This document shows, one piece after another, positions 34,120-63,116 of a stretch of 64,000 nt of DNA (position 1 is the stretch's first letter; each line of letters starts with the position of its first letter). The position numbers and the translations under genes were made by a program. Where the stretch lies: positions 19,555 to 83,554 of the forward strand of contig JALQPE010001686.1 in the NCBI GenBank assembly GCA_030407315.1, given 5' to 3'. The notes under the pieces were generated by a model. It made no database searches, had not been told where the DNA came from, and saw only the letters and a list, made by a program, of their open reading frames with translations. The DNA comes from Asparagopsis taxiformis (taxonomy: Eukaryota; Rhodophyta; Florideophyceae; Bonnemaisoniales; Bonnemaisoniaceae).

Positions 34120-34908
34120 TGTGATGCAATTTATGTTGCAAGTGCGCGCGCGGGTCGGAGCGATGCGTCGCGTTGAGTCCGCGTGCATCCGCGTTTAGTT
34201 AGTTAGTAAGCGAGCGTACGCGTGGCGATACAATTACGTGTCACGGCGCGCTTGCGCGAACGCGTACGATTGCGAGCTTGGCGCCACGTGTAGCGCCTTT
34301 TGCGAAATTCCCTTTATTTCCCCTTTTTGGGTTTTTTATGACGAAAGTCTTTTTCCCAAATATTTCCCTTTTTGCGTGCGAGCGAGCGGCCGCCGGCCGG
34401 CCGCGCAAGGACAACCTGTCCTAGGTAGTTAGCTACTAATGGTTGTTCTGCTTCGCACCTTACCAATAAACAGTCAGCATCTTCGCAGCTACGAGTTAAG
34501 CGTTTAGCGAATCGCGAGGACCGATTGCGTTGAAACGTTGCGTGCGGGTTGCTCACGATCGCCGACGTTCGCGTGCGCGCTGCGCATAAACCGATCGTCG
34601 AACCGCGTCGCACCGCGATAGCGCGCGTTGCGTCGCACGCCACTAGGCCAGGGATTTACGACCCCTGTGTGGATCGCGTTGTGCTCGAGTTTACTCGGTG
34701 ATCTCACCCTGAGATCACGGCTTGCGCCGGCCCGCGAATCCCGTGTTGCGATCGTTCCCTACGCGTTCCGCCGTTGTACCACCCGTTCGCCAGCGCGACC
34801 GAGCGACGCGCGAACGCAAGTTCAACCAGCGCGTTACGGTTCACCTCGCCCTGACACGGCTGCAATTCTAGAACTCCCTTAGTGATCGCCACCCCGGCTG
34901 GTCCTACA
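34120..34908 (+). repeat. 5' LTR of family A copy 2
   Basis: 789 bp, TGTGATGCAA...GGTCCTACA. It contains AATAAA at 34465-34470 (within TACCAATAAACAG), a likely poly(A) signal. A pyrimidine/T-rich block (34306-34373) includes GGGTTTTTTATGACG. A perfect inverted repeat at 34698-34718 has 9-bp arms around CCC. Confidence 0.95.
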
Positions 34909-34910
34909 AC

Positions 34911-34928
34911 TGGTCTCTCGACCTAGAA
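34911..34928 (+). promoter_or_regulatory. Primer binding site, family A
   Basis: TGGTCTCTCGACCTAGAA starts two bases after the LTR. TGG is the complement of a tRNA CCA end, as in gypsy elements. Family A copy 3 has the same site (55479) and family B has TGGTCTCTCACCCTAGAA (52987). I could not match the primer tRNA. It is not the tRNA-Met gene in this window. Confidence 0.7.
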
Positions 34929-35485: not shown

Positions 35486-37458
35486 ATGGATCCATCCGCG
35501 CCCGAGCGATCGAACGCGCCGACCGAACCGCCGCCAGTCGCGTCGCAAACACACGCAGTCGACGCGCTGGTCGCTTCACATATCCCTGACCCTACCGCTT
35601 CTCCGTGGCCGCCGTTACCGACGCAAGCGCTCGCGAGCATCGACGACGACGCGCAAACGTCCGACGATGGCGCCGCAACGAAGCGCGAGGCCGAGTTCCG
35701 TGTTTCCGACGTGCACGCCACGCCGTCCGCAACGCTTCCGAGCTTGGTTCGACAAGTAGTGGACGACCCTACGTTCCAATGCATGCTCCAGGCTGAAGTA
35801 CGAGCTGCAGTGGACCGCGCTATCAAAGGCCAATCACGTGGACTGACGGCTCAGATGAGGGCGCAAGTCCACAACCTAATCGTCACTACGATGGACTCCC
35901 GCGAGGAGCACAATATTGAACGCGCGAACGTCGCTGCGCGCGAAAACCGAACGCGAACCGCAGCGCGCGCGACCCCTACGAACTACGCGCGCGACGCGGA
36001 CCCCGAAGGATGGCTGGAACTGGCGCGCCAGGACCTGTCATTCGACGACCACCCGCATTCGGATAGCGACAATAGACCCGCGCATCCCGGACTGGTAGAG
36101 ATCCAGCCGTTGAACGAGCTGTTCACGCGCGCGCTTTCGTATCGCACGTACCGCTTGCGTAATACGGACCGCGCGTTTAACCGAACAATTGCGAGCGAAT
36201 TGGCTAACACCGCGAAAATGGTGCGCCATTCGATGCAAGGAGAGAATTTCACGGGCGCTGACGGAATCGCCGTGCTATCGTTCCTGAAGTATTTCAAGAG
36301 CGCATGCGACGACACCGGCGTATCCGAAGGCGCAGCGTTGCCGATTCTCAAGTATTTCCTCGCCGACGAGGCGCGCGACACGTTCCAAACGTACGTGGGA
36401 CGAACGTTCCGAGGCTCGCGCGCGGGCGTCGATTCGATTACGTGCTACGCGGAAGCCGTTCAGTGGCTCCTGCTAACCTATGCGCGCGAAGGCGACGTCG
36501 CGCAAGCGTATCGTGACGTGGCGCAACAAACGCAAGACCCGAAGGAAACCGAAACGCAATTCGCTACGAGACTACGACGCCGCGCGCTGCGCTGCGGCGA
36601 TGCCTTTAGCGAGCGAACGCTTGTTTCTATTTTCGTCGATGGTCTACGACCCTATGCGCAACACCTCGTACGGGACGCGCTGTCTCGCGACCCGCGTCGA
36701 TACACCTTCCGAGAGCTAGTCTCTATGGCGCAGAGCCATGGGGACACGCATCGAGCGATGACGCCGACGACGAGCGCGCGACCGCTACTGCGACGAACGC
36801 CTGCGCTCTACGTGGAAGAGGAGGAGACACCAACGATGCAGGCACTGACCGTGGGGCATACCCCGCCATCAGGCTTCTCATCGCCAAACGTCTCAACCTC
36901 CGCCGCGACGCCGCACGCTCCGCGCGAACGGAAGTTCTCGACCCCGAGCCCCATGCGAAGTCCAACCTCGCTTGGCACCCCTTCGTCGAATTATCGCACG
37001 CCACGCTCTCGCGACGCCTCGCCCGCCGACCGCTCGCGACGCTTTGCGCATAACGACGACCGAGAACGCGAACGCGCGGGACCGTACACGGCGCACATAC
37101 CGCGCGCCACTTACCCACCGCCTATCGTGAGACAGACGGCACCGGCCGACACGTCTCGCACAGCGGCGTTCCGCTGTCTGATATGCCGGAAGTTTGGGCA
37201 TCCTATGGTAAGCTGCCCGCTGCTCTCATCCGAGCAACAGGCCGCAATTCGCGAGATGCATAGCCACGCGCGCGTCTGACGCCCGAAGAGCTGAACCTGC
37301 AGCGTAACGTTCAGGTTTTCGAAGTTTCCGCGGACGATGACGCACGCGAGCGCGAAAGCGAACGCACGCGCGAAGACGACGCGCACGACGGCGAGCAGCT
37401 CACGCCCCACTCGGTTCGCTTCGCAGAAGACCCGGGAAACGCCTACGAGGAGTCGTAG
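35486..37458 (+). CDS. Gag of family A, C-terminal extension frameshifted
   Basis: ATG 35486 starts 597 residues ending at TGA 37277-37279. The N-terminal third is Pro/Ala/Thr-rich. The capsid-like core includes FLKYFKSACDDTGVSEG, the ILKYFLADEARDTF block and FVDGLRPYAQHLVRDALSRD. A proline/serine linker and a CCHC knuckle follow (CLICRKFGHPMVSC, about residues 564-577). Copy 3 continues past this point (HARLTPEELNLQRN) to a stop after YEE. In copy 2 a GT insertion at 37274-37275 ends the frame early, but the same acidic tail remains open to TAG 37456-37458. The family form of gag therefore has about 60 more residues rich in Glu, Arg and Asp. Gag builds the particle and packages RNA. Confidence 0.9.
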
Positions 37459-37502
37459 CGGGTGGGCCGACTCCTCTCCATCCAACGGATACGCGACGCG
37501 CG

Positions 37503-40500
37503 ATGACGCAACCGCCGCGCGAAAAACCGCCTCCGTTACCACCCGAAACAGTGGTCCTGTTTCAGACCCCTACCGCGAACTACAAACTCGAGGTACGCGT
37601 CGGATATAATCTACGCACGGCCACCGCGGTGACCGCTGTGCTTGATACCGGCGCGGGCCCGAGCCTCATTCGCGAGAACGTATTAGGCGCTGATTGGAAA
37701 CACCACGCTACGCCGCCGACGCTGCGTTGCGCGATTATCGACGCGAATGGACGACGCCTCGCGCCGAACGCGTCGTTGCGACTCAGCGTTCTTCTAGGTG
37801 CCCGCGCGCACCTTCAAACTTTCCTGGTGATGCCGCGCTTATCCGTCCCTTGCATTCTGGGAGCAGACTTCATCGACCGTGTGGTTCGGATGATCTATAC
37901 TGGGCCGCAGCGCGCGTTGCGAACCCGCTATGGAGACCACGTTCCAATGCTCCCACGAACGCCGACGAAACCGCGCCGCGCACCGACCCCCAAGACTACC
38001 CGACCGACAGAATTCGCACCAATCCGCGTTGCGCGCCGCACGTCGATTCCGCCGCACGCGACGCAAGCTATCGAAGTCACCACGGGCGCTGACGGACGCT
38101 GCATCACGATACCCGCGACCGACCTCTACGGACAGAAGTTGTTGCGTCTAGCCAATGGTGAAACGCAGGTTAAAAGGAACGTGCCCTTCAGCGTGCATGT
38201 GCACAACGCCGGCACCCGCCTACAGATATTGCCCAAAGGCATGAAGGTGGGCGCCGCAGTGCCCAACCCCGTAGGTTGCCTACAAGTTGCACAAGAGGCA
38301 CCGACCCCGCAAGACCGACCGCCCGACGATGCGACGCCACGCGACGCGACGAACCCGCCGGACCTGCGCGAAGCCGACGGAATTGCGAACGCGACGCCGC
38401 ACTGGGAAGACCTCCTACGCGCGACGCTACGCGATGAGCGAGTAGACGACGACCTACACGCGCGAATTATCGAGATGCTGCGAAAGCACGAGCAAATGTG
38501 GAATGGCACGCTTGGAGCCATCCACGCGACAGAACACCGCATCGAACTGGTTCCGGGGGCGACCCCCGTCAACCAACCGCCGTACCGCGCCGGACACGCG
38601 TCGCGCGAAATTATCCGTACGCAAGTGGATAAGATGCTCCGCGCTGGAGTGATCGAACCTGCTACATCGGAATGGGCGAGCCCGGTCGTAGTCGTGCCTA
38701 AGAAGGACGGGACTTCCCGCTTCTGCATCGACTACCGCCGCTTAAACGCCGCCACCGTCAAGGACGCGTATCCGATTCCGCGCATGGACGATTGCGTCGA
38801 CTCGCTCGGTAACGCGACGGTTTTCACTACGCTGGACTGCAATTCGGGATACTGGCAGATCCCAGTGGCGCACGCCGACCGCGATAAGACTACGTTTACA
38901 TCGCACGTTGGTACGTATCGTTTCCGCCGCATGCCTTTTGGGCTTTCGAACGCGCCCGCGACGTTTCAGCGCGCGCTTGACATTTTGCTCGCGAACGTGA
39001 AGTGGCAACATTGCCTTGTCTACCTGGATGACGTAATCATCTTCTCCGCCGACGTAAACGCGCACGTGCACCACGTCGACGAAATACTGGGAATCCTCGG
39101 ACGCGCAGGCGTTTCGCTAAAGTTCGCGAAGACCGAGTTCTTCAAGCGCTCGGTGGACTACCTGGGACATACTATTTCGCCTGGGAAGCTCTCCGTACCG
39201 ACGACAAAGTGCGACGCGCTGCGCGATGCGACGTACCCGACGACGAAGACGCAGTTGCGAAGTTTTCTAGGAACTTGCAACGTATACCGCCGATTCGTCG
39301 AAAAATTCGCGTTCGTAGCCGCGCCGCTTACGCAGCTGCTGAAGAAGGACCAAGGAGACAGCTTACCCGCGCCGACGCCGGAGCAAACGCGCGCGTTCGA
39401 ATCATTGCGACAAGCGATGCTATCTCCGCCTATCCTCCGTCTACCGCGCGAAGGGCACCCGTACGTGCTCGACACTGACGCGTCGCAAGGCCAAATCGGA
39501 TGCGCCTTGCTACAGCTAGACGCGGACGAAGACGTATTACATCCGGTCGGATACTGGTCGCGCACGCTTAACGACGCGGAGCGAAATTATTCGACGACGG
39601 AACGCGAATGCCTCGCGGTAGTATGGGCAGTGCTACTACTACGCGCGTACCTAGAAGGACGGAAGTTCACGGTTCGCACGGACCACAATTCGCTGCGCTG
39701 GATTCTAAACATGACCTCTGCGGAAGGACGACTCGCGCGCTGGCGATTGCGACTCGCCGAGTTCGAGTTCGACGTATATATATAGAAAGGGTAAACGCCA
39801 CGTTATCGCCGACGCGCTCTCGCGAATGGCCACGCGAAGCGGCGACGAGACGGAAATACCGGACGAGATACCCTGCTTCGACGCCGCGAACATCGTTGAA
39901 CCGCACGCGGACGCTTATGCGCGAACCGATACCGCGCTACTATGCGACTACGCAGAATACTACCCGAGTTTGGACTGCCTACTGGCAACTCGGTCATGCA
40001 TCGAACCGCCTGTGTCCACTGACGAGTGGATACGCGAGCAGGCGACGGACGAATTCTGCCAAAACGCGAAACGCGATGTCGAAACCGCGCCGCAGTCGCG
40101 CTTTCACCTGTCCCCCGATGGGATACTTATGAGGACCGCGCCGCTCGACGACGCCACGCAGATAGTCGTGCCCGAAGCGATTAAGGGGCGCATTTTGCGA
40201 GCGAACCATTATGCGGTAACTGCAGGACATCCGGGCGCGCGGCGCATGTACGACGCCATCCGACGCGCGTACTACTGGCCGATGATGAGCGTGGACGTCT
40301 ACACTACAGTGAGACAGTGCGATGCGTGCGCACGTAACCGCGTTACGCAATATCGCCATACGAACGCCCTGAAGCTATTCCCCGCGACGCGCCCGCTCGA
40401 AGACGTCGCTATCGATATCCTTGGTCCGCTGCCCGAGACTCCGCGCCAACGCCGCTTCGTACTCGTAATCGCAGACCGCTATAGCAAACTCTGCCGACTC

Positions 40501-41733
40501 ATCGCGCTCGGACGCGTATCCGCACTCGCCGTTGCGAAGGCATTTTGCCGAGACTGGGTTTTCGTCTATGGACCGCCGCGCACGCTACTTTCGGACAATG
40601 GGCCGCAATTCCGCTCGAAGCTGTTTCAGGAGACTTGCGCGCTGATGGGTACGCGGAACATATTTACGACGACATACCATCCGCAATCGAATGGACAAGT
40701 CGAGCGCATGAACCGCACTATCGTAGCGACGCTGCGCCATTATGTAGATGAAGAGCGCAGAGATTGGGACGAGCATTTAGACGCGCTCGCGTACGCTTAC
40801 AACCGCGCGATACACCGCTCGACGAATACGTCGCCGTTCGAACTCACGCTCACGCGCTATCCCGTATCGCTGGGAACGGAGCAAGTGGACACGATTCGCA
40901 GCACGCCATTCCTTCGCATGGAATTTCTCGCACGATTATCGGACGCGTACGCACGCTCGGCGAATGCGTTGAAGAAAGCGCAAGCGAGATACAAGCGCGA
41001 CTTCGACCGCGGCGTGCGCACGGTGAATAAGGATATCAAGGTGGGCGATCAAGTGTACCTGGACACTCGCGCGGGAGCGACGACACGAACACAACGCAGC
41101 GACGCAGCGCACACGTCGAAGTTAGACTACCCTGTGTCGGGCCCTTTCCCGGTTATAGGCTGCCGCGGACACACGTACGAAATCATAATCGACGGTGTCC
41201 CCGAACTCGTCAGCTCCGATCGCGTTCGCATGGCACCGCGCTACGCGACGCATGCGCCAACGACGTTGGACGACGTAGAAGAAGACACTAACACGGAGAA
41301 CGCGAACGACGCAGAGCGACGGGATGAACGCGAAATTAACGAGGCGCGCAAGGTCGACCCGGAAGCCGGGTATGGGACGCGCGAGTTCATGATTGACAGG
41401 CTAACAGCCGAGGGCATCGACGACACCGGCGCGCCCGTATTCCGGGTGCGCTGGAAGGGCTACTCCCCGCGCGATGATACGTGGGAGCCCGAAGCGTCCC
41501 TGCCCGCGCCTATCGTCGCCCGTTTTCGCCGTGATCAAGGACGGCCCGCCTCTAAAACCGCTGCGCGCGCTACTGCCGACGGCCCTGCGGCGCTGCGTAA
41601 CCGCCGAAGTCGCTCAACGAAGCGCTCAGCCCCGAGGGAGGCACCCGATGGCGCGCCGCGAAAAACGACACCTACCCGCATCAGCGCGCGTATTGCAAGC
41701 CGACAAATGACGCCTCGTGCGCAACGCAATTAA
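37503..41733 (+). CDS. Pol of family A: protease, RT, RNase H, integrase, chromodomain (one frameshift)
   Basis: ATG 37503, 44 bp after the gag tail. The protease has LDTGAGPS (about residue 48). RT has FCIDYRRLNAATVKDAYPIP, the FTTLDCNSGYWQIPV block and YLDD (about residues 507-510). RNase H has VLDTDASQGQIGCAL and TDHNSLRWIL. At about 39770-39800 one extra base relative to copy 3 gives a stop (39783-39785). The continuation is open from 39826 to 41733. Integrase there shows the HHCC finger (H...GHPGARR, then CDAC), the DD35E triad (Asp about 197, Asp about 257 in SDNGPQF, Glu about 293 in QVERMN, numbered from 39826) and a C-terminal chromodomain (41382-41530: FRVRWKGYSPRDDTWEPE). Chromodomains of chromoviruses steer integration to histone-marked heterochromatin. 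Confidence 0.92.
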
Positions 41734-43785
41734 TGCAGGAAGCGTTGCGGGGGGGTTGCCATCCACGCGCGTTTACGTCGACGAAGAAGCTGTGCAAGTG
41801 CCAGCTGATTACCTGGCAGTGGTAAGCATCCAAGCGCAAACACAGCTACCCGCCTTGCATCACGCCAAACTACTATCGGCAGCAGGGACCGGAAGGGGAT
41901 ACGACTTATTGCCGCCAAGCGTCGCAGCGCCACGCAACCGCTTCGTCGCACAACGCGCAACCGCTCCTTCGGACGCCACACAACCGCTTCGTCGCACAAC
42001 ACGCAAACGCTTCCTCGAACGCCTTGTAACCGTTTCGTCGCACGCCACGCGATCGCCGTTCGCGCCAACGCCTCGTCGTTCGGCACGCAACGCCCGGTTC
42101 GTCGTACGCCTTGCAACACGCGTCGCATCGTCGTTCGCCACGCCCCGCGCAATCGACATTCTACCGCTGAATGACCTGAAACTACTGCCGCACGCAATGA
42201 AGCGACGCCGCTCGCGAGCCGCGTACGTGTGCGCCTGACAGGTTGAACACGATTCGACGTTTGCCCGCCGCGCTACTACCCGCGCCGACTACCCGCACGA
42301 AGGCGCGCCGCCCCGGACTAAGCTGCCTGAATCTCGACGCTTGACAACACACGAAGGGGCCCTCACAGACGCTGGTCGGTCCGGCATCGACACGCGTCGC
42401 GCGGGACGCCACCACCGCGAAGATATTGAGCCCCCTCGCTGACGCTCGAGACGTTGCCTGTTAAGAAGTGCGATAAGCGCGAAAAGCCCATGACGGACGC
42501 TGCGTCAATCTCGCTAAACAGGCGCCACGCAATATTCGCCGCTTGCGTTTCGGTCGCCTTTCGTTCGCCACGCGCTATCCGCCGTTTACGCCACGTAACG
42601 CCTAACGACCGTCTACCGCCACACGGCCACTGCGCCACTACGCTCGTTGGAACCGCCGCGGATACGAACGGCCGCGTATCTCTGGATTCGTTGCGAGTTG
42701 GGCCTCGACTAACACCCGACCTACTCCAGAGGCCGCGACATGCGCGGGACCACGCGATGCGTTTTCGCGCGAAAAAAGGGGAGCGACACTGGCGCTGGCG
42801 TGCGGGCTGGCCCGGCTATTTAGCAATTCTACCGTCCCACTCGAATTGTCCCATTGGAAAAATGCGACGAAAGGGGCACCCGAATCGCGCCGCCGTCAAG
42901 TTGGCCCCCGCACCGTGACGAACTGTCCCCTACTGCCGTCACCTGATTGGACGACAACATACGCGAACTCCAGCGAGGCGCTCGAAGCTGGTGGAAGGAC
43001 GCATACCCCTGGACGCACGCAGCCCCCTACCGAGAATATAGTGGTGCCCACGTGCATGGTTCCCCCTCAACCCAAGCGTGGAGAATGAGGCTCGCTCCAA
43101 GAAGGGAAGAATGTGACCCCACCCGAGCCCCCTAGGTACCATTCGGCCGTCCGCTCTAGTCACGGGACAATAGACACGGTAGCAAACGGTGAACGCCGGT
43201 AGTAGGCGACGCGAACGACGGATGCGAAAAAGCGAACGAACCGGCGACGCGAACGACGAATGCGTAAGGCGGCACGAATTGACGACGCGAAGCGGAAGCG
43301 AACAACGAATACGCATGCGAAAATTAACCAGCGACGTCGAGGATTGCGCGTGACGAACCGACGAAACGAAACCGCTACGACGAACTCGTACCGACGCGCT
43401 ACCCGTCCATACTCCCTTCTTCTACCCCCCCACTCAAACCTTTCTCGCTTCGCAACGTATGCATACTACCCCTCCCTTCCCCCCGCGCGCACGACTGGAC
43501 GCCGCCGGCCGCGTGCCCTCCGAACGCCGACGTGGGCAGCGGGCAAATACGGTTTCAAGCAACGACACGCGCGCCCCTTCGCGGAAACACCGGCTCGTGC
43601 ATGCATTTGACGGAACCCGCGTTGCGCTGTCGCTCACTCAAAAGCTGCAGGAACCCTGGCGTTTCACGGCCGCAAGCGTGTCGGACGGGAGGAACCCCGC
43701 ATTACGAAGCGCTAGGTGGAGATACAAACAAGGAGAGTTTATTTCAAAAGAGGATGCAATGCGAGGAGGAGGAACGAAGTGATAG
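41734..43785. other. Spacer between pol and antisense ORF, with degenerate repeats
   Basis: No gene on either strand. 41930-42130 carries imperfect tandem units like CAACCGCTTCGTCGCAC separated by CGCCACGC. 43190-43330 has CGACGCGAACGACGAATGCG-type units, the region that has expanded to a pure 9-bp array in copy 3 (63117-63327). The end of the antisense ORF lies at 43786. Confidence 0.6.
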
Positions 43786-46623
43786 CTAAGACGGAGGCGC
43801 GCGCGTGTCGTCGTCTCGACGCGAAGCGCGGCTCGACGAACTGGCTGCCGCACCGCGCGAACGAGCACGGCTTGAAGCCGTATCTGCCTGGTGACCGCGT
43901 CGCCGCTCGGAATTTAACACCCGAACGACGCGCCCGTCGTGTACGCCAATCCGGAGTGGAGGGATACCCGTACGCCTCGCGCGACCCGCGGAACTCGCCG
44001 CTGCACGCGAACGCGTCATGGGACGCGCCCCGCCACGACCCGAACCAACGCTTCCCGTCGCGCCCCGCGTCGCATCTGCGCGTAACCCGCTCTCCGACTG
44101 CGTCGCGCCAGTCGACTCCCTTTCGTCAACAGAACCCGCAGGAGAACGCTGCATGAAATGGACGACGTCATTTAACGCCGAGCCCATACGGTGAGCGCGT
44201 TCGATAGTTTCCTGAACCCGACGGACAGTCTCCCTCTCCCGAGCGCGATACCCGTCACGTACAGCGGCGATTCGAGCAGCCAACCGATCCCTCTCCGCCT
44301 CCAAATTAGATTCGACTTCGGCCAACGCACGTTGCGCGGCCTCCTGCGCTGAACCGGCGGAATCGTAACGAGACTGAAGGGCCGCCAACGCTTCGCGACC
44401 ACCTTCAACCTCCTTCTCCTGTTTAGCCGCACGACCTTGCATTACGCCGATATCCTTATGCATGCGCTCGATGCGCACGGCGTCTTCGTCGACCTTACGC
44501 TTCAGCGCGGCCTCACGCGCCTCGGACGCAGCCAGCGCCTCGCGAGTCTCGCGTAAGAATGACACGGCCTCGTCGCGCGCCTCGTTTGCATCGTCGCGAT
44601 CCTTAATCGCCTCGTCGCGGGCCTTGATAGCCACGTCAAGGCGTCCCAGGGCTTCGTCTCGCGCTTGGGCGACCGACGTTACACGCGAAAGCGCCTCGTC
44701 GCGGTTTTGTTCAGCAGACGAGATCTGTGCCTGCAAGTTGGCCGCACCCGTTGAATCCGCTAACGCGACGACGTCTTCGCCATCCACCGCCGCCGGCGCC
44801 TCCGCCGGGTCAGTAACCGCGACTGCGCTCGACGCCGCGACGCTACCAACCGCCGCGCTCGCGCTCGCATCACCCGGAGCGTTAGCGATATCTTGGCTCG
44901 GAATGGACTTCTTCAACTCCTGCAGTTCTTTATAAACCTTGACGTACTCCGCCCGTAGCGCTGCGTCCAACTGAGTAATGTCAACAGGAGGCCGAGGCGA
45001 CTCAGAGAATAACGAATAGCGCCCGTCGCGGAAACGCCGGCGCTCGACGGCCAATAACGCAGCCATGCCGAGGTATTGCGCGTACTCGCGCGAATTAGTT
45101 GCGCGCATCACATGCAACTCGTTGGAAGATAAGGCCGACAAGACGGCATCCACGGTCACAACGTCACCCGCTTCCAAGTGCGCGAACGCGCTGCGCGACG
45201 GGTTACGCGGGGACTTCAACAACAAGTGCGGAATTTCGGTATGACGATGAACCCCGAGCGCGCCGTGCGCCCAGTCTATCACGCCGCGTTCCGCGCTCCA
45301 AGGCAACCACTGGCCACCCTCGTTAAAGTCCACACCCGGGGCGACGTCGAAGACAGGCGTCTCGTCCCAAGGACATGCGCGATGCTCCGTCAAAAGACTC
45401 TCCAAATGCGCAACCGAATACGTGCCGCCACGAACGACCGCCGCAGCGCCGACGCTCTCGATGCCAGCCACGAGTCTGTCGCTCAAGCGAACGATGCGGC
45501 GCTCAACGAACGCGACATGGAGCCACGCGCAAGCCACCATGACGACCCACTCGCTAAGGGCAACGGCCCAGAAATAAGAACGCGTCTCCACGGGGACGTC
45601 GAGGCCAAGAAGAACGGAAGGCGCATAGTGGAAGACACAAGGCAAAGGAACGGAAAGAGATTCTGGCGCCTCCGGCCAGTCGCGCGGATCGTAGCGCGGA
45701 AAGAAAGCGCCAACGCGATCCTCGGGGAACTCGCGAAACTCCGCGTCGCGATACGTGACGAAGTAACCGGCGGAGCGGCGCATGCGTAACTCGCGGTGCG
45801 CTTCGGCACGCATCCCCGCGTCGAAGAACCACGGTACACTGACTTCTCCTTCTTGTTCGATGTCGTTCCAGGGGACACCACCGTCCAACAGGAAGCCGGC
45901 GCTAGGCGCCGCCGCCCACGGGTCGAGATGCGCAAATTCGTCGCGACGCATCGTTCGGAGCCGCGCCAGATGACGCACAAGCCGCTCGTCCGCGGCGTCC
46001 TCGAGGAAATAGGCATCGCATGGAAGATTAGTGGGTACGGCTAAATCGCATAGGGCCGCTTCACGCCGCGCGTCCCACACGGCCTGCGCGTTTTTGTGGC
46101 CGGGCAACACCGCGTAGCGGTTGACGTCGGCGATACGCACCCATTGAAAACGCCGCGGGAAGTATTGAACACGGCCTAGCTCAGTCCAAGTCGGCATCGC
46201 GCGCGGAAGGAAACGGAAGGCAGAAGGGTCTTCGTAGCGCGCACGCGGGACGACGGCGGGTACGTGTTGCGCAGCAGAAGGAAGAGAAACAGAGGAAGGA
46301 GCGGGAATGGACCGCAAAGGCACGCCGACGTTCGTACGACTCCCAGACGCGGATGCGGGAGCAGCAGTCACGTCCACCGTCGCGTCGATACCGGGCGATG
46401 CGTCAGCGCCGTCCGTATTATGCGCACTCGCCGTCGCGCCAACCGGAGCACTCGCGGATGACGCTTGAGCCATGGAAAGATAGAACGGGCTCTCGGGGCT
46501 CGCAGGCGCAGGCGAAGCGAAGCGCGAAGCGGCAGACGGAGTGCGTAGCGGCGTCGCAGCGCCTTCGCCGGAAGGAATGCTGGCCCGCAGCCAGCTCGGA
46601 AGGGTATCACCATCGTGCGCCAT
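43786..46623 (-). CDS. Intact antisense ORF of family A (945 residues)
   Basis: From ATG 46623 to the stop at 43786, uninterrupted, on the strand opposite gag-pol and ending about 170 bp from the 3' LTR. The frame is open further upstream (to GTG 46743) with a hydrophobic stretch, but MAHDGDTLPSW is the first ATG. Residues 1-140 are Ser/Ala/Pro-rich. A middle globular part of about 450 residues follows, with many Trp/Phe and one hydrophobic helix (SYFWAVALSEWVVMVACAWL). Then comes a coiled coil of about 200 residues with heptad ARDEA units (KARDEAIKDRDDANEARDEA). The tail is Arg/Ser-rich. No known domain was recognised. Family B carries a counterpart with the same layout. A frameless gag-pol beside an unbroken antisense frame suggests it is or was under selection. 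Expression would need a promoter in or near the 3' LTR on the minus strand. Confidence 0.8.
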   Translation of the reverse strand: MAHDGDTLPSWLRASIPSGEGAATPLRTPSAASRFASPAPASPESPFYLSMAQASSASAPVGATASAHNTDGADASPGIDATVDVTAAPASASGSRTNVGVPLRSIPAPSSVSLPSAAQHVPAVVPRARYEDPSAFRFLPRAMPTWTELGRVQYFPRRFQWVRIADVNRYAVLPGHKNAQAVWDARREAALCDLAVPTNLPCDAYFLEDAADERLVRHLARLRTMRRDEFAHLDPWAAAPSAGFLLDGGVPWNDIEQEGEVSVPWFFDAGMRAEAHRELRMRRSAGYFVTYRDAEFREFPEDRVGAFFPRYDPRDWPEAPESLSVPLPCVFHYAPSVLLGLDVPVETRSYFWAVALSEWVVMVACAWLHVAFVERRIVRLSDRLVAGIESVGAAAVVRGGTYSVAHLESLLTEHRACPWDETPVFDVAPGVDFNEGGQWLPWSAERGVIDWAHGALGVHRHTEIPHLLLKSPRNPSRSAFAHLEAGDVVTVDAVLSALSSNELHVMRATNSREYAQYLGMAALLAVERRRFRDGRYSLFSESPRPPVDITQLDAALRAEYVKVYKELQELKKSIPSQDIANAPGDASASAAVGSVAASSAVAVTDPAEAPAAVDGEDVVALADSTGAANLQAQISSAEQNRDEALSRVTSVAQARDEALGRLDVAIKARDEAIKDRDDANEARDEAVSFLRETREALAASEAREAALKRKVDEDAVRIERMHKDIGVMQGRAAKQEKEVEGGREALAALQSRYDSAGSAQEAAQRALAEVESNLEAERDRLAARIAAVRDGYRARERETVRRVQETIERAHRMGSALNDVVHFMQRSPAGSVDERESTGATQSESGLRADATRGATGSVGSGRGGARPMTRSRAAASSAGRARRTGIPPLRIGVHDGRVVRVLNSERRRGHQADTASSRARSRGAAASSSSRASRRDDDTRAPPS

Positions 46624-46787
46624 AGCGTGCGAATCGGCAAGGATGACGGCGAACGCGGGTGGCAAGAGAGAAGGAAGAAGGAGATGGACAAAAGAGAAGA
46701 GGTTGCAGACGAAAAGAGTAGAACGAAGGAAACGGAAGAGCACGTGAGGAAAGAGATGGCGCGCGAGGACGCGCTGTGATGTTAGTC

Positions 46788-46795
46788 GGGGGGAG
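46788..46795 (+). promoter_or_regulatory. Polypurine tract, family A copy 2
   Basis: GGGGGGAG directly before the TGTGATG start of the 3' LTR. The same tract precedes the LTR of copy 1 (6883-6891). It is the expected plus-strand primer of reverse transcription. Confidence 0.8.
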
Positions 46796-47583
46796 TGTGA
46801 TGCAATTTATGTTGCAAGTGCGCGCGCGGGTCGGAGCGATGCGTCGCGTTGAGTCCGCGTGCATCCGCGTTTAGTTAGTTAGTAAGCGAGCGTACGCGTG
46901 GCGATACAATTACGTGTCACGGCGCGCTTGCGCGAACGCGTACGATTGCGAGCTTGGCGCCACGTGTAGCGCCTTTTGCGAAATTCCCTTTATTTCCCCT
47001 TTTGGGTTTTTTATGACGAAAGTCTTTTTCCCAAATATTTCCCTTTTTGCGTGCGAGCGAGCGGCCGCCGGCCGGCCGCGCAAGGACAACCTGTCCTAGG
47101 TAGTTAGCTACTAATGGTTGTTCTGCTTCGCACCTTACCAATAAACAGTCAGCATCTTCGCAGCTACGAGTTAAGCGTTTAGCGAATCGCGAGGACCGAT
47201 TGCGTTGAAACGTTGCGTGCGGGTTGCTCACGATCGCCGACGTTCGCGTGCGCGCTGCGCATAAACCGATCGTCGAACCGCGTCGCACCGCGATAGCGCG
47301 CGTTGCGTCGCACGCCACTAGGCCAGGGATTTACGACCCCTGTGTGGATCGCGTTGTGCTCGAGTTTACTCGGTGGTCTCACCCTGAGATCACGGCTTGC
47401 GCCGGCCCGCGAATCCCGTGTTGCGATCGTTCCCTACGCGTTCCGCCGTTGTACCACCCGTTCGCCAGCGCGACCGAGCGACGCGCGAACGCAAGTTCAA
47501 CCAGCGCGTTACGGTTCACCTCGCCCTGACACGGCTGCAATTCTAGAACTCCCTTAGTGATCGCCACCCCGGCTGGTCCTACA
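46796..47583 (+). repeat. 3' LTR of family A copy 2
   Basis: 788 bp, near-identical to the 5' LTR. Differences seen by eye are one T fewer in the CCCCTTTT run (about 46998) and A to G in GGTGGTCTC (about 47374). The latter breaks one arm of the conserved inverted repeat. CTGGG, the right target duplication, follows at 47584-47588. Confidence 0.95.
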
Positions 47584-54663: not shown

Positions 54664-55476
54664 TGTGTGGTGCAATTTAAGTTGGTCGATGGAATCGATG
54701 CGAGCGCGCGCGTTTACGTTAGTCCGCAAGCATCCGTTTGAGTTAGTTTAGTAAGCGAGCGCACGCGTGGCGTCTTGATTACGTGTCACGGAGCGTCAAC
54801 GCGAGCGCGTGCGCGCGTACGTTGCCACGAAACCGCGAGCCGCGCCACGTGTAGCGATTTCCGCGAATTTCCCTTTATTTCCCTTTTTGGGTTTTTTATG
54901 ACGAAAGTCTTTTTCCAAAATATTTCCCTTTTTGCGTGCGAGCGTGCGGCCGCCGCCGGCCGGCCACACAAGGACAACCTGTCCCAAGTAAGTTAGCTAT
55001 TAGTGGTCGCATGGCTTCGCACCCTACCAATAAACAGTCAGCACTTTCGCAGCTACGAGTTAAGCGTTGAGCGCGTCGCGAGGACCGATTGCGTTACGAC
55101 GTTGCGTGCGGATTGCTCACGATCGCCGACGTACGTGCGCGCGCGCCGCGTTTACCGACCGTCGAATTGCGTCGCACGCACCGCGAGACCGCGCGTTGCG
55201 TCGCATACCGCTAGGCCAGGGATTTACGACCCCTGCGTGGATCGTGTTGAGCTCGAGTTTACTCGGTGATCTCACCCTGAGATCACGGCTTGCGCCGGCC
55301 CGCGAATCCCGTGTTGCGATCGACCCTGCGCGTTCCGCCGTTGTACCACCCGATCGCCTCCGCGACCGAGCGACGTGCGAAACGCAAGTTCACGAGCGCG
55401 TTACGGTTCAACACGCCCTGACAAGGCAAGCGATTCTAGAACTCTCTTAGTGACCGCCATCCCGGCTGGTCCTACA
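54664..55476 (+). repeat. 5' LTR of family A copy 3
   Basis: 813 bp, TGTGGTGCAATTTAAG...GGTCCTACA. It is clearly the same LTR as in copies 1 and 2 but more diverged (for example GTCGATGG near the start, extra bases around 55130-55200). The primer site TGGTCTCTCGACC begins at 55479. The conserved 9-bp-arm inverted repeat is intact at about 55266-55286. Confidence 0.93.
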
Positions 55477-56047
55477 ACTGGTCTCTCGACCTAGAATTGC
55501 GCGAACCGACGTGCGAACTCAGCGAAGGAAGAAACTCCGCTTGGGGAAACACGGGACGCCAAACCTATCGCTTACTCTAACTTTCCCTTTCTCCGTTCGT
55601 CGTGCGCGACAGCGAGGGCGATTGACGCGTGCGCGCGTATCGCTATCCCGGAAGCGGTGCTACAGCCTCTCTGGTTTGTATAAACTACCCTATCTCTACT
55701 ACGACGATTCGCGCGCGGAACGACGCGATCGACGCAGCGCGTGCGCGCGCTAGTTCGCAACCCTAACGCGGGTTCGGCGGTGCCGAAAATATTGGGTTCG
55801 CAGACGGTCGAGACCCGTCTTTGCGCGTTCCGAGCGAGGAAGAAGCCCTCCTGCGAGCGAACTCGTCCCCCTCACCCTTACTACGCGCGCCCGATACGCA
55901 GACAATTTTCGGGAAGCGCTTCCCTTTTTACTTGCCAATTTTTCGACGCGCCGACGCGAGATTTTGACGCGCGCCGAATTCCCTTTCTCCCTTCCCATCA
56001 TCCCTTTTTCCCTTTTCCCTAGGCGACGATCGAACGCGACCGCGCCG

Positions 56048-58081
56048 ATGGATCCCCCTACGCGCGAGCGATCGAACGCGCCGACCGAACCGCCGCCAGT
56101 CGCGTCGCAAACGCACGCAGTCGACGCACTGGTCGCTTCACACATCCCTGACCCTACCGCTTCCCCGTGGCCGCCGCTACCGACGCAAGCGCTCGCGAGC
56201 ATTGACGACGACGCGCAAACGTCCGACGATGGCGCCGCAACGAAGCGCGAAGCCGAGTTCCGCGTTTCTGACGTGCACGCTACGCCGTCCGCAACGCTTC
56301 CGAGCTTGGTTCGACAAGTAGTGGACGACCCTACGTTCCAATGCATGCTCCAGGCAGAAGTCCGAGCGGCTGTGGACCGCGCCATCAAGGGCCAATCACG
56401 TGGATTGACGGCTCAGATGAGGGCGCAAGTCCACAACCTAATCGTCACTACGATGGACTCCCGCGAGGAGCACAATACCGACCGCGCGAGCGTCGTTACG
56501 CGCGAAAACCGAACGCGAACCGCAGCGCGCGCGACTCCGACGAACTACGCGCGTACGCGGATCCCGAAGGATGGCTGGAACTGGCGCGCCAGGACCTGTC
56601 ATTCGATGATCACCCGCGCTCGAATAGCGACGACGGACCCGCGCACCCCGGGCTGGTAGAGATCCAGCCGTTGAACGAGCTGTTCACTCGCGCGCGCTTT
56701 CGTACCGCACGTATCGCTTGCGAAATACGGACCGCGCGTTTAATCGGGAAATCGCGAGCGAACTGGCCAACACCGCGAAGATGGTGCGCCATTCGATGCA
56801 AGGAGAGAATTTCACGGGCACTGACGGAATCGCGGTACTATCGTTTCTGAAGTACTTCAAGAGCGCATGCGACGACACCGGCGTATCCGAAAGCGCGCGC
56901 GAGCGTATCTCAATTTCCTGGCCGACGAAGCGCGCGACACGTTCCAAACGTACGTGGGACGAACGTTCCGAGGAGCGCGCGCGGGCGTCGATTCGATTAC
57001 GTGCTACGCGGAAGCCGTTCAGTGGCTCTTACTAACCTACGCGCGCGAAGGCGACGTTGCGCAAGCGTACCGCGACGTGGCGCAACAAACGCAAGACCCG
57101 AAGGAAACCGAAACGCAATTCGCTACGCGATTACGACGACGAGCGCTGCGCTGCGGCGACGCGTTTAGCGAGCGAACGCTTGTTTCTATTTTCGTCGATG
57201 GTCTACGCCCCTACGCGCAACACCTCGTGCGGGACGCGCTGTCTCGTGACCCGCGGCGATACACCTTTCGAGAGCTAGTCTCTATGGCGCAGAGCCACGG
57301 GGACACGCACCGAGCGATGACGCCGACGACGAGCGCGCGACCGCTACTGCGACGAACGCCTGCGCTCTACGTAGACGAGAGACGAGACACCGATGATGCA
57401 AGCTCTGACCGTGGGGCACACCCCACCATCAGGCTTCTCATCGCCAAACGTCTCGACCTCCGCCGCGACACCGCACGCTCCGCGCGAACGGAAGTTCTCG
57501 ACTCCGAGCCCCATGCGAAGTCCGACCTCGCTTGGCACTCCTTCGTCGAATTACCGCACGCCACGCTCGCGCGGCGCCTCGCCCGCCGCCCGCTCACGAC
57601 GCACTGCGCATACCGACGACCGGGAACGCGAACGCGCGGGACCGTACACGGCGCACATACCGCGCGCGACTTACCCACCGCCTATCGTGAGGCAGACGGC
57701 ACCGGCCGACACGTCTCGCACGGCAGCGTTCCGATGCCTGATATGCAGGAAGTTCGGGCACCCAATGGTGAATTGCCCACTGCTCTCGTCCGAGCAGCAG
57801 GCCGCGATTCGCGAAATGCATAGCCACGCGCGCCTAACGCCCGAAGAACTGAACCTGCAGCGCAACGTTCAGGTCTTCGAAGTCTCCGCGCACGCCGACG
57901 CGAACGAGAGCGAGCGACAGCGCGTCGACGGCAACGAGCGAACGCGCGAAAACGAGAGCGCACGCGAGCGCGAGCGCGAAAACGATCGGACGCGCGAATA
58001 CGACGCGCATGACAGCGAGCAGCTCACGCCCCACTCGGTTCGTTTTGCAGAAGACCCGGGAAACGCCTACGAGGAGCCGTA
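56048..58081 (+). pseudogene. Gag of family A copy 3, frameshifted
   Basis: ATG 56048 (MDPPTRERSNAPTEPP), collinear with copy 2 gag. Frame changes occur near 56550 (TACGCGCGTACGCGG), near 56690, near 56895 (GCGCGCGAGCG replacing GCAGCGTTGCC) and near 57375 (GAGACGAGACACC). The end is the informative part. After the CCHC knuckle (CLICRKFGHPMVNC) the frame runs on through a highly charged tail (DANESERQRVDGNERTRENE) to a stop at 58079-58081. This shows what the C-terminus of family A gag looked like before the indel in copy 2. Confidence 0.8.
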
Positions 58082-58126
58082 GCGGGTGGGCCGGCTCCTC
58101 CTCACTCAACGGATACGCGACGCGCG

Positions 58127-61100
58127 ATGACGCAACCACCGCGCGAAAAAACCGCCTCCGTTACCACCCGAAACAGTGGTCCTGTTTCAGACCCCTACCG
58201 CGAACTACAAACTCGAGACCCGCGTCGGGTATAATCAACGCACGGCCACCGCGGTGACCGCCGTGCTTGATACTGGCGCAGGCCCGAGCCTCATTCGCGA
58301 AAACGTACTAGGCGCCGACTGGAAGCGCCACGCTACGCCGCCGACGCTGCGCTGCGCGATTATCGACGCGAACGGACGACGCCTCGCGCCAAACGCGTCG
58401 CTGCGACTTAGCGTTTTTCTAGGTGCCCGAGCGCACCTCCAAACCTTTTTGGTGATGCCACGTTTATCCGTCCCATGTATCTTGGGAGCGGACTTCATCG
58501 ACCGCGTAGTCGAAATTATCTACACTGGACCGCAGCGCGCGTTGCGAACCCGCTATGGCGACCACGTCCCGATGCTTCCGCGTACGCCGACGAAACCGCG
58601 CCGCGCGCCGACCGCGAAGACGACCCGACCCACAGGCTTCGCGCCTATTCGCGCTGCGCGCCGCACATCGATTCCGCCGAACGCGACGCGAGCGATCGAC
58701 GTTACCACGAGCGCTGAAGGGCGCTGCATGTAGTTCCCGCGACTAACCTCTACGCGCAGAAACTACTCCGTTTAACCAACGGGGAGACGCTGGTTCGAAG
58801 GAATGTACCCTTCCGAGTACAGGTACACAACGCTGGCACTCGTCTACAAGTATTGCCCAAAGGCATGAAGGTAGGCACCGCCGTGCCCAACCCCGTGGGG
58901 TGTCTACAAGTCGCTCAGGAAGCGCCGACCCGCAAGACCGACCGCCCGACGACGCGACGCGACGCAACGTTACGACACCGCCGGACCCGCGCGAAACCGA
59001 CGAAATTGCGAACGCGACGCCGCCTTGGGAAGACCTCTTACGCGCGACGCTACGCGACGAGCGAGTAGACGACGACCTGCACGCGGAAATTATCGAGATG
59101 CTACGAAAGCATGAGCGATGTGGAACGGCACGCTTGGAGCCATTCACGCGACGGAGCACCGCATCGAGCTGGTTCCGGGGGCGACCCCCGTGAACCAACC
59201 GCCGTATCGCGCCGGACACGCGTCGCGCGAAATTATCCGTACGCAAGTGGAGAAGATGCTCCGCGCTGGAGTAATCGAACCCGCTACGTCGGAATGGGCG
59301 AGCCCGGTCGTGGTCGTGCCTAAGAAGGACGGGACCTCCCGCTTCTGCATCGACTACCGCCGCTTAAACGCCGCCACCGTGAAGGACGCGTATCCGATTC
59401 CGCGCATGGACGATTGCGTCGACTCGCTCGGTAACGCGACAGTTTTCACGACGCTGGACTGCAACTCGGGATACTGGCAAATCCCAGTAGCGCACGCCGA
59501 CCGCGATAAGACTACGTTTACGTCGCACGTCGGTACGTATCGCTTTCGCCGCATGCCTTTCGGACTTTCGAACGCGCCCGCGACGTTTCAGCGCGCGCTC
59601 GACATTTTGCTCGCGAACGTGAAGTGGCAACATTGCCTTGTCTACCTGGATGACGTAATCATCTTCTCCGCCGACGTAAACGCGCACGTGCACCACGTCG
59701 ACGAGATACTGGGAATCCTCGGACGCGCGGCGTTTCGCTAAAATTCGCGAAGACCGAGTTCTTCAAGCGCTCGGTGGACTACCTGGGACATACTATTTCG
59801 CCTGGGAAGCTCTCCGTACCGACGACGAAGTGCGACGCGCTGCGCGATGCGACGTACCCGACGACGAAGACGCAGCTGCGAAGTTTCTAGGAACTTGCAA
59901 CGTATACCGCCGATTCGTCGAAAAATTCGCGTTCGTCGCCGCGCCGCTTACGCAGTTGCTAAAGAAGGACCAAGGAGACAACTTACCCGCGCCGACGCCG
60001 GAGCAAACGCGCGCGTTCGAATCATTGCGACAAGCGATGCTGTCTCCGCCAATTCCTCTGCCTACCGCGCGAGGGACACCCGTATGTGCTCGATACCGAC
60101 GCGTCGCAAGGGCAAATCGGATGCGCGCTACTTCAGCTAGACGCGGACGACGACGTGTTACATCCAGTCGGATACTGGTCGCGCACGCTTAACGACGCGG
60201 AGCGCAACTATTCGACGACGGAACGCGAATGCCTCGCAGTCGTATGGGCAGTTTTGCTATTACGCGCATATTTGGAAGGACGGAAGTTCACGGTTCGCAC
60301 CGACCATAATTCGTTGCGTTGGATCCTGAACATGACGTCCGCGGAAGGACGACTCGCGCGCTGGCGATTGCGACTCGCCGAGTTCGATTCGACGTCGAAT
60401 ACAAGAAGGGAAAACGCCACGTTATCGCCGACGCGCTCTCGCGAATGGCCACGCGAAGCTGCGACGAATCGGAAATACCGGACGAGATACCCTGCTTCGG
60501 CGCCGCGAACATCGTCGAACCACACGGACGCATATGCTCGAACCGACGCCGCGCTATTATGCGACTACGCAGAATACTACCCGAGTCTGGACTGCCTACT
60601 GGCAACTCGGTCGTGCGTCGAACCGCCCGTATCCACTGACGAGTGGATTCGCGAGCAAGCGACGGACGAATTCTGCCAGAACGCGAAACGCGACGTCAAA
60701 ACCGCCGCGATCGCGCTTCCATCTGTCCCCCGACGGGATACTAATGAGGACCGCTCCGCTCGACGACGCGACGCAGATAGTTGTGCCCGAAGCGATAAGG
60801 GACGTATTTGCGAGCGAACCATTACGCGGTAACTGCAGGACACCCGGGCGCGCGACGCATGTACGACGCAATTCGACGCGCGTATTACTGGCCGATGATG
60901 AGCGTAGACGTCTACACCACGGTGAGACAATGCGATGCGTGCGCGCCGCAACCGCGTTACGCAATATCGCCATACGAACGCCCTGAAGCTATTCCCCGCT
61001 ACGCGCCCGCTCGAAGACGTCGCTATCGATATTCTGGGACCGCTGCCCGAGACTCCGCGCCAACGCCGCTTCGTACTCGTAATCGCCGATCGCTACAGCA

Positions 61101-62170
61101 AGCTTTGTCGACTCATCGCGCTCGGACGCGTATCCGCGCTAGCCGTCGCGAAAGCGTTTTGCCGAGATTGGGTTTTCGTTTACGGACCGCCGCGCACGCT
61201 ACTTTCGGATAACGGGCCGCAGTTCCGCTCGAAGCTGTTTCAGGAAACGTGCGCGCTAATGGGAACGCGGAACATCTTCACGACTACCTATCACCCGCAA
61301 TCGAACGGGCAAGTCGAGCGCATGAACCGCACCATCGTCGCGACGCTGCGCCATTACGTCGACGAAGAGCGAAAGAATTGGGACGAGCACCTAGACGCGC
61401 TAGCGTACGCATACAACCGCGCGATACACCGCTCGACGAATACGTCGCCGTTCGAACTTACGCTCACGCGCTACCCCGTATCGCTGGGGACGGAGCAGGT
61501 CGACACGATTCGCAGCACGCCGTTCCTCCGCATGGAGTTTCTCGCGAAGCTATCCGACGCGTATGCGCGCGCGCAGCGAACGCGTTGAAGAAAGCGCAAG
61601 CGAGATACAAACGCGACTTCGACCGCGGCGCACGCGCGGTGAACAAGAGCATCAAGGTTGGCGATCAAGTATATCTGGACACCCGCGCGGGAGCGACGAC
61701 ACGAACGCAGCGCGACGACGGAACGCGCCCTTCGAAGTTGGACTATCCCGTGTCGGGACCCTTCCCGGTCACAAGCTGCCGCGGGCACACTTACGAAATC
61801 ATAATCGACGGTGTGCCCGAACTCGTCAGCTCCGACCGTATTCGCCTAGCACCGCGCAACGCGACGCGCGCGCCGGTTACGCCAAGCGGCGAAGAAGGAC
61901 GGACTGACGCGGAGGACACAGCGACGCAGCGCGACGTGACGAACGCGTACTCGATGACGCACGCAAGGTAAATCCTGAAGCAGGATATGGGACGCGGGAG
62001 TTCATGATTGACAGATTGACGGCTGAAGGTGTCGACGACACCGGTGCGCCCGTATTGTGTACGCTGGAAGGGCTTCTCTCCGCGCGACGACACTTGGGAG
62101 CCCGAAAGCTCGTTACCCGCGCCCATCGTTGCCCGTTTCCGCCGCGACCGCGGACGCTCCGCCTCTGAAA
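58127..62170 (+). pseudogene. Pol of family A copy 3, frameshifted
   Basis: Protease (LDTGAGPSLIREN), RT (59118-59741, identical in protein to copy 2 over most of its length, with YLDD), RNase H (from 60086, LDTDASQGQIGCAL), integrase (60808-61588, with GHPGARRMYD, SDNGPQF and QVERMN) and a broken chromodomain (about 61990-62120). Frames change at about 58730, 58930, 59115, 59728 (GCGGCG for GCAGGCG), 59887 (one T fewer), 60055, 60385, 60700, 60800, 60950, 61578 and 61965. Nearly all are one-base indels in short runs. Confidence 0.85.
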
Positions 62171-63116
62171 CACTGCGCGCAACACCGAGGTTGACGCCAC
62201 GTCACCGCGCAATCGTGGAAAGCGACCGGCACGCGGCGACGCCTCACGTATAACGCCGCCTAGCCGCGCGAGCGCGCGCATCGCGAGTCGACGAACGCCT
62301 TCGCATGCACCGCGCAACTGACGCGCGGAACGGGGCTGAACACGCCAGTTACGCCCAGCGGAACCGACGCGTAAATAAACACGCGGGCCAAGCCTCCCAT
62401 CGCCGCTTGTCGTTTTCGCCGCGCGACTGCGCCACCGTTTGCCACGCAATCGCGTCTCATCTTTCGCCGCGCAACGCCAAGCGTCACAATCGCCGCGCTT
62501 CCACGCAATTCGTTTTCGCCGCGCAAACCGCGCACCACCGCTTGTCGCGTAGCCGTCTCACGCGCAACCGTCGCATTCCACCGTCCGCCTTCCGCTCCCG
62601 CACGGAACCAAACGGCAAACCGTATCGGGGGGGGGGTCCAGGTGCCGTTCGCCTCCCATCCACCATGCTGACAACGCCAGAATCCCCAGGAGTGGCACGC
62701 CCGACAGCGCAATTACGCGCGAAAAAAGGGAGCGCGCACACCGGATTGGTCGTTGCGGAAGAGGGATTGGCCCATACAGCATGGCCATGTACTGTGCTGG
62801 AAGATTATAGCCCGAAAAACGAGCCGAGGCCGGGGCAGGCCAAAAATGGACGGCGCCGATCTGCCCCGACGCCGTGGCGAGATGCTTCCTGATGGCACCC
62901 CCGGATTGGCTGTTAACATACGCGCGTACGCGACGAACCACACGGGTGGCTGGGAACGACGCAGAATACCAGCAAACGAAAACCTCCGCTGGAAAGGGGG
63001 ATGCCACCCACACGCCCGTCCTCCTCGTCCTGGAAGGCCATGGCGAACCCCAAACCCCCGGGCCGGGACCCCATCTAGACGCTCGCTAAAAACCAGAGCA
63101 TTAGAAACCCAGTCCC

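Follow-up and report, generated by a model that had tools for sequence, protein, structure and literature searches.

A long antisense gene under strong purifying selection in chromodomain retrotransposons of the red alga Asparagopsis taxiformis

Results

An antisense reading frame in a complete chromodomain element

The stretch of Asparagopsis taxiformis DNA analysed here (64,000 nucleotides (nt) of contig JALQPE010001686.1, C1566:19555-83554 in the host genome searched; hereafter the window) contains a complete chromodomain Ty3/gypsy retrotransposon of family A. Between pol and the 3′ long terminal repeat (LTR), on the strand opposite gag-pol (35486-41733, plus strand), this element carries an open reading frame (ORF) of 945 amino acids. 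The antisense ORF is a genuine protein-coding retrotransposon gene under strong purifying selection in family A and in a second family, B, and it is probably needed by the element. Subfamilies A1 to A4 are named after identity bands of matches to the core of the antisense protein, the window element being A1; B1 and B2 are two groups of family B, and C is a third family. The parts of the element and of the antisense protein are as follows (window positions).

34120-47583, complete family A chromodomain Ty3/gypsy element, about 13.5 kb; LTRs TG...CA, CTGGG on both flanks
34120..34908, plus strand, 5′ LTR, TG...CA, with the 5-bp target duplication CTGGG just before it
34911..34923, plus strand, putative primer binding site read from the sequence, starting with TGG just inside the 5′ LTR
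35486..37279, plus strand, gag ORF
37503..39785, plus strand, pol part 1: protease, reverse transcriptase (RT), RNase H
39826..41733, plus strand, pol part 2: integrase and chromodomain
41734..43785, 2-kb spacer from the 3′ end of pol to the 3′ end of the antisense gene
43786..46623, minus strand, antisense ORF, 945 amino acids from its ATG
44911..46266, minus strand, most conserved core, residues 120-571
44134..44910, minus strand, residues 572-830: a linker and the heptad-periodic coil region, with the coil proper at about 626-830
43789..44133, minus strand, basic C-terminal tail, about the last 110 residues, with 22 Arg and 0 Lys
46788..46795, plus strand, putative polypurine tract GGGGGGAG, read from the sequence
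46796..47583, plus strand, 3′ LTR, followed by CTGGG and 99.6% identical to the 5′ LTR
47140-47145, plus strand, sense-strand AATAAA within the 3′ LTR

The domain order protease-RT-RNase H-integrase was found in the window element and likewise in A2, B1 and C elements. pol is split over two frames in the window copy and forms a single frame of 1463 amino acids in an A2 copy. The Pfam Chromo match exceeded the cut-off of 25.1 bits in two family A copies (33.2 bits in the window element and 27.1 bits), while the matches at the expected place in B (19.5 and 18.6 bits) and C (16.5 bits) remained under it. The gag ORF of the window element had no Pfam match in the library scan; C gag matched Retrotrans_gag. 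The carriers are chromodomain Ty3/gypsy elements, as a preceding sequence-only reading of the window had supposed; as carriers they are of an ordinary kind. The available text of PMC3605345 reports chromoviruses as such from red algae.

The antisense frame is coding

From stop to stop the antisense frame comprises 1006 amino acids (43786-46806, minus strand). Its ATG lies 172 nt internal to the 3′ LTR edge, and 2 kb separate the end of the ORF from that of pol. In 1000 order-1 Markov sequences modelled on region 43701-46800 the longest open frame had 486 codons, compared to 1004 observed. An aligned pair of A1 and A2 genes displayed no stop in the antisense frame and 18-35 stops in each of the other five. 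The differences between the two fell on codon positions 1, 2 and 3 in the numbers 115, 79 and 436. In four of the other five frames the apparent ratio of nonsynonymous to synonymous substitution rates (dN/dS) was greater than 1; it was 0.16 in the fifth, the mirror frame. Constraint on an overlapping sense frame was considered as the cause of conservation and rejected, as the sense frames of two aligned pairs contained 19-42 stops. Low ratios among the sense frames were confined to the mirror frames (0.16 in A and 0.30 in B versus 0.08 and 0.20 in the true frame).

The same data bear on the idea that the antisense RNA itself matters, with double-stranded RNA limiting copy number and the open frame being incidental. 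Regulation by antisense RNA has a precedent in yeast Ty1 (available text of PMC12786077), and the convergent layout with poly(A)-type hexamers would suit it. However, the third-position bias and the low dN/dS in the antisense frame indicate that the protein sequence is selected. A role of the RNA instead of a protein is therefore very improbable and already largely refuted.

Three families carry the gene at the same place

In the host genome (141.5 Mb, 3156 contigs), contig C469 holds 11 of 13 phycobilisome matches, and two matches there with identical scores are 177,170 bases apart, which would suit a circular plastid contig assembled over-long; the host is accordingly a red alga or possesses a plastid of the red-algal type. 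This genome was searched for further copies. Only the best candidates were scored in these searches, and all copy numbers are lower bounds. At least 48 matches of family A were found, fragments included, and 36 of the 48 listed had no in-frame stop. With the A core as query, at least 95 places were scored, most of them in identity bands of 96-100, 91-93, 87-88 and 83-84% with few matches in between (86 and 89%). The antisense gene is present in at least four diverged A subfamilies. When the window piece of B (3-1715, 571 amino acids) served as query, at least 80 matches were obtained (67 of the 80 listed without stop), mostly with about 94-100% (B1) or 77-80% (B2) identity. Many B copies are open for 1073 (B1) or 1068 (B2) codons. 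Family C was found with the B core at 53% identity; its own core gave at least 100 matches, of which 88 of the 100 listed were without stop. The sequence-only reading had described an ORF of more than 900 codons between the pol side and the 3′ LTR, opposite gag-pol, in A and B; C carries a long antisense ORF in this position too.

In all five elements read (A1 in the window, A2 at L045, B1 at L046, B2 at L047 and C at L056) pol lies on the strand opposite the antisense gene and upstream of it in the direction of pol. The ORFs of an A3 copy, L058 (C2351:97500-102000), are likewise on the strand opposite the antisense gene; an internal deletion in this copy fuses the gag start to mid-pol in one frame. 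Place and orientation of the antisense gene agree among the three families, and the distance from its ATG to the 3′ LTR edge is 172 nt in A, about 476 nt in B and about 498 nt in C, the B and C edges being the ends of BLAST matches. pol is 70-74% identical between B and C and 42-48% between A and either of them. A gag shows about 33% identity to B2 and C gag (expectation value (E) <1e-28). Between B and C the antisense proteins share 43% identity over their whole length and 53% in the core, which in B/C spans about residues 285-715.

A host gene that was recently captured by one element and is carried passively was considered as an alternative. Other retrotransposons are known to have captured cellular genes (available text of PMC7264820), but here several diverged subfamilies (A dS >1) carry the gene, and the B/C lineage has it at one position. 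Moreover, LTR sequence adjoins it in 30 of 30 A loci fetched from among the best candidates scored. A single-copy intron-bearing host homologue did not appear among the scored hits, which were not searched for one. We attach very little probability to recent capture and treat the antisense ORF as a gene of the elements.

Relatives elsewhere were sought by protein searches, each of which scored only about 8000 best candidates. These candidates included one A relative, P0001 from a JGI metagenome, whose match covers 78% of the query with 66% identity; a B2-like fragment (P0002, ENA) was the only other relative among them.

The core is the most constrained part

dN/dS was calculated by the Nei-Gojobori method for open ORFs only. 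Of the 30 A loci fetched, 24 were used; L018-L022 and L027 were dropped since their frame was broken or shortened. For the whole ORF the ratios were 0.08 (A1-A2), 0.12 (A1-A3) and 0.13 (A1-A4), the values between A subfamilies being approximate here and below because dS is near saturation, and 0.20-0.21 (B1-B2). In the core they fell to 0.03-0.05 for A1 versus A2-A4 (A2 0.030, A3 0.046, A4 0.034) and to 0.086 for B1-B2. The coil, the tail and the N-terminus were looser (0.11-0.46). For comparison, gag gave 0.198 (A1-A2), the RT-bearing pol pieces 0.056 (A1-A2), 0.092 (A1-A3, 330 codons) and 0.057 (B1-B2), and other pol pieces 0.14-0.15. Compared to RT, the A core is thus under tighter constraint and the B core under somewhat looser constraint. 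Neutral evolution of the antisense frame, which the sequence-only reading had named as an outcome that would speak against its proposal, is refuted by these values. dS of gag and pol between A1 and A2 was much lower, which we ascribe to recombination.

Close copies yielded ratios of 0.20-0.54 in B1 (six comparisons) and 0.09-0.29 in A1 (16 comparisons), some of them based on very few changes. These values lie at or above those between subfamilies, which would be expected of a constraint that holds in active lineages and is relaxed in inserted copies.

Architecture of the antisense protein

The A, B and C proteins share the order low-complexity N-terminus, core, coil and basic tail. The order predicted from the sequence, with a globular middle, a coiled coil and a basic or charged end, was borne out, the end being arginine-rich: about the last 110 residues carry a net charge of +12 to +14 and 16-22 Arg but no Lys in all three families. 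A 3.5-residue period of the coil hydrophobics is clear in A and B and weaker in C, as judged without a significance test, and it is absent from the A and B cores. P0001 carries a coil insertion of 28 amino acids relative to A, which equals four heptads.

Assignment to a known domain was attempted and rejected. Searches of Pfam, NCBIfam, PHROGs, PDB and viral contigs, the viral scans possibly omitting records near the host genome, gave coil-region matches, chance-level matches or none. Weak library matches lay mostly in the coil, and the remainder were at chance level. The weak SMC matches of the A coil reached at best E 0.00036 and 18.4 bits, compared to a cut-off of 567.

On balance, we favour the view that the gene encodes a self-associating, arginine-tailed, nucleic-acid-binding accessory protein which would serve the element itself. 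The sequence-only reading had allowed for, among other options, a structural or movement role; a protein with such a role, in particles or in passage from cell to cell, would be envelope- or particle-associated. A large coiled-coil protein would be compatible with it, as would the one hydrophobic stretch of A at residues 355-373, with a hydropathy of 1.77 (1.70 in A4), but the best stretches of B and C (1.02 and 1.37) are not comparable. The Arg-rich tails and the N-termini, which are of low complexity and by eye unlike signal peptides, also argue against such a role, as does the antisense orientation, env-like extra ORFs being in sense orientation. We regard a structural or movement protein as quite unlikely.

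Another candidate is an anti-silencing factor directed against the host's defence by methylation or small RNAs; without such a factor, convergent transcription of sense and antisense strands would set this defence off. In A, B and C alike, copies are numerous, near-identical and mostly open, which suggests recent success, and the convergent gene arrangement fits; the rest of this explanation would follow by inference. With no significant match to a described domain in the searches above, there is no sign of a known suppressor. Many silencing suppressors evolve fast, unlike the slow antisense core (dN/dS 0.03-0.09). An anti-silencing function is thus unlikely, and an accessory protein for the element's own cycle remains the interpretation we favour.

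Relationship of the A and B antisense proteins

The sequence-only reading had taken short collinear blocks to suggest homology of the A and B proteins. Pairwise BLASTP, profiles and hhalign, the latter whole-length and core-only with shuffled controls, were applied to this question. hhalign between A and B gave E 0.054-0.11, and column shuffles scored at least as high as the real alignment in 6 of 59 whole-length controls (shuffled within blocks) and in 20 of 200 core controls. The profile match is therefore at chance level. The core-to-core alignment paired VPTNLPCDAYFLEDAADERLVR of A with VPHTLLCDRTFLLHPGDALYVE of B, and the realigned top local match covered the motif pair quoted in that reading. 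Without realignment, the top whole-length match was coil to coil instead. Although the motif pair does sit at the best core-to-core profile alignment, homology from collinear blocks lacks statistical support, and we do not claim it because shuffles score as high and the unrealigned top match is coil to coil. gag and pol of A and B are clearly related, and the layout is common to both. Set on the scale of pol identity, the 43% (53% in the core) between the B and C antisense proteins suggests that a match between A and B would be expected to lie below detection.

Signals flanking the antisense gene

Three features flank the gene in the window.

43738..43743, minus strand, AATAAA, a candidate poly(A) signal for the antisense gene, at a distance of 45 nt to the first stop-codon base, kept in A1-A4
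46624..46795, minus strand, 172-nt leader from the 3′ LTR edge to the antisense ATG, pyrimidine-rich by eye
46761..46774, GCGCG-TCCT-CGCGC, an inverted repeat directly internal to the polypurine tract

Of 30 A loci examined, a count that left out the four broken loci L020-L022 and L027, 27 have AATAAA at 43-48 nt, measured from the first base of the antisense stop. The three exceptions are L014, where hexamer and stop are changed, and L018 and L019, where the frame ended early. The 3′ flanks of A1-A4 can hardly be aligned save for the run AATAAAC, their sole long invariant stretch. In B1 and B2, ATTAAA was found at 106-108 nt in all three flanks that are long enough, 13 further B loci ending short of this position, and in C at 107 nt in two of three loci (L048, L049).

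At the other end of the gene, an alignment read by eye displayed a leader block beside the polypurine tract that is kept in A1-A4, while the remaining leader diverges; the polypurine tract and the LTR end also have other reasons for conservation. The inverted repeat lies within this block and, in the form GCGCG-TCCY-CGCGC, was present in all 30 loci L001-L030 and in all four loci L051-L054. At the equivalent place B and C carry TTGTCG-TCC-CGACAA (window 3277-3291, L048-L050, L055 and L057, the last overlapping L048). The stem of the inverted repeat appears longer in A4 by eye.

Recombination among A elements

Comparison of the A1 element of the window with an A2 copy in 500-nt steps revealed 92-99.6% identity from R-U5 through gag and most of pol. 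From late integrase via the antisense gene into U3 the identity falls to 74-88%, with one step unmatched. Across eight A2 loci, R-U5 was 98.4-99.5% identical to the window, and U3 87-92% in seven of the eight. Relative to A1, A2 elements look like single-crossover chimeras (window versus L045 and L026). One template switch in reverse transcription would give such a pattern, joining an A1-type 5′ half to the 3′ half of a diverged lineage. Here, the chromodomain end of integrase has thus moved along with the antisense gene. L023, with 97.7% identity in U3 and 78% in the antisense gene, suggests a further template switch. The A1 locus L021 has a diverged U3 (88%).

Other features of the window

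Further pieces of families A and B lie in the window.

3..2834, minus strand, family B antisense ORF, window copy, with an in-frame TAG at 1716-1718; it runs off the window start
3311..3969, plus strand, family B 3′ LTR, delimited by a BLAST match of the B1 end to the B2 end, about 476 nt from the B antisense ATG
3970..7681, plus strand, family A 3′ fragment with the antisense gene split over two overlapping frames, and the 3′ LTR
54717..62180, plus strand, third family A copy, in which LTR, gag and a degenerate pol are matched; its antisense gene is absent from this contig, which has the same end as the window

The sequence-only reading had counted three A copies with the antisense ORF in the window. 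Three copies or fragments are present, but the antisense ORF is intact only in the element at 34120-47583. The end of the B LTR match coincides exactly with the start of the A fragment at 3970-7681, which suggests that a B element inserted into an A antisense gene. Beside the third A copy, a gag fragment at 53516-54577 resembles family C gag by eye. In family C itself, 2 kb from LTR to gag are repeated at 99.6% identity at C319:8000-23700 (L056/L057), where two elements may share one LTR in tandem. Other mobile elements in the window are represented by a DDE_Tnp_4 transposase-like ORF (16908-18185) and a separate Ty3-type capsid ORF (14134-15120). A long trinucleotide repeat near the contig end (62713-63412) translates as (NAT)n or (FVA)n.

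Discussion

Antisense ORFs ahead of the 3′ LTR have been described before. The available text of PMC7264820 lists Grande, RIRE2, Retand, PvRetro13 and the fungal Boty and gives no established function for any of these ORFs. Most known cases of antisense extra genes in LTR retrotransposons come from plants. The antisense ORFs of maize Grande (gene23) and rice RIRE2 have the same position and orientation as the gene described here, and an antisense promoter of its own and a nuclear product are reported there for gene23; the likeness is one of layout, in a different host. ORF2 of PvRetro13 from common bean, also antisense before the 3′ LTR, has an SMC domain match (same source), and the A coil has weak SMC matches too; such matches are generic for coiled coils, and no homology between the two is implied. 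brtn of Boty from Botrytis is an antisense extra gene in a non-plant gypsy element (available text of PMC7264820 and PMC8365987) and is likened to the present gene by layout only. The antisense ORFs of Retand with the TRP28 domain (PF04195) are treated in the available text of PMC11963269 as encoding a proposed DNA-binding regulator of unknown function; Retand is a non-chromovirus lineage of flowering plants, whereas the carrier here is a chromodomain element (A) of a red alga. A search with a single protein each of A1, A4, B and C gave no PF04195 match at E up to 10. Human T-cell leukaemia virus 1 (HTLV-1) HBZ is encoded by an antisense gene near the 3′ LTR of a retrovirus (available text of PMC11963269); it is a nuclear factor and may be compared in the way it works, without a claim of homology. 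The likeness to the plant Grande and Retand and the fungal Boty antisense ORFs is one of analogy, with no claim of a relationship between the proteins.

This kind of gene is already known; what looks new is a strongly selected one, unlike library proteins, in a red-algal chromodomain lineage. Among the papers listed by our literature searches, mostly non-subscription ones, there was no report of such an antisense gene in red algae or in chromodomain elements. The earlier impression that the gene looks undescribed stood to this extent, whereas antisense ORFs at this place as such were known from plants and Boty.

The mechanism that we propose is drawn from layout and composition. Transcription of the antisense gene would start at the 3′ LTR edge and yield a convergent mRNA of its own, and the gene product would self-associate via the coil and bind nucleic acid via the arginine tail. 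It would serve the element's own cycle, most likely in the nucleus. The product might handle element RNA or cDNA, help the pre-integration complex to reach chromatin, or control transcription of the element.

Several observations weigh against this interpretation. The core had no significant match in Pfam, NCBIfam, PHROGs or PDB, so that nucleic-acid binding is read from the composition of tail and coil. As a membrane segment, the best hydrophobic 19-mer of A would be a borderline case. The B core ratio (0.086) exceeds that of the RT-bearing pol piece (0.057), and dS between A subfamilies amounts to 1.2-2.3 for the whole ORF and to 3.2 for the A1-A4 core. Furthermore, the hexamer is absent at the third C locus, L050.

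A more far-reaching proposal is that the A and the B/C antisense proteins derive from one ancestor, although no sequence match between them is detectable. An antisense accessory gene with a new fold would then be one of the old features that define a red-algal chromovirus clade. The gene product would recognise the family-specific inverted repeat on the polypurine-tract side and thereby link antisense transcription, plus-strand priming and chromatin-directed integration. We consider this speculative and rather unlikely.

In the red-algal chromodomain lineage the core of the antisense protein is constrained about as tightly as reverse transcriptase. Three families with several subfamilies are ready replicates, and the poly(A) hexamers, the leader block, the inverted repeat beside the polypurine tract and the conserved core provide handles for study. 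These findings suggest that retrotransposon lineages of very different kinds possess antisense accessory genes and that such genes matter for propagation.

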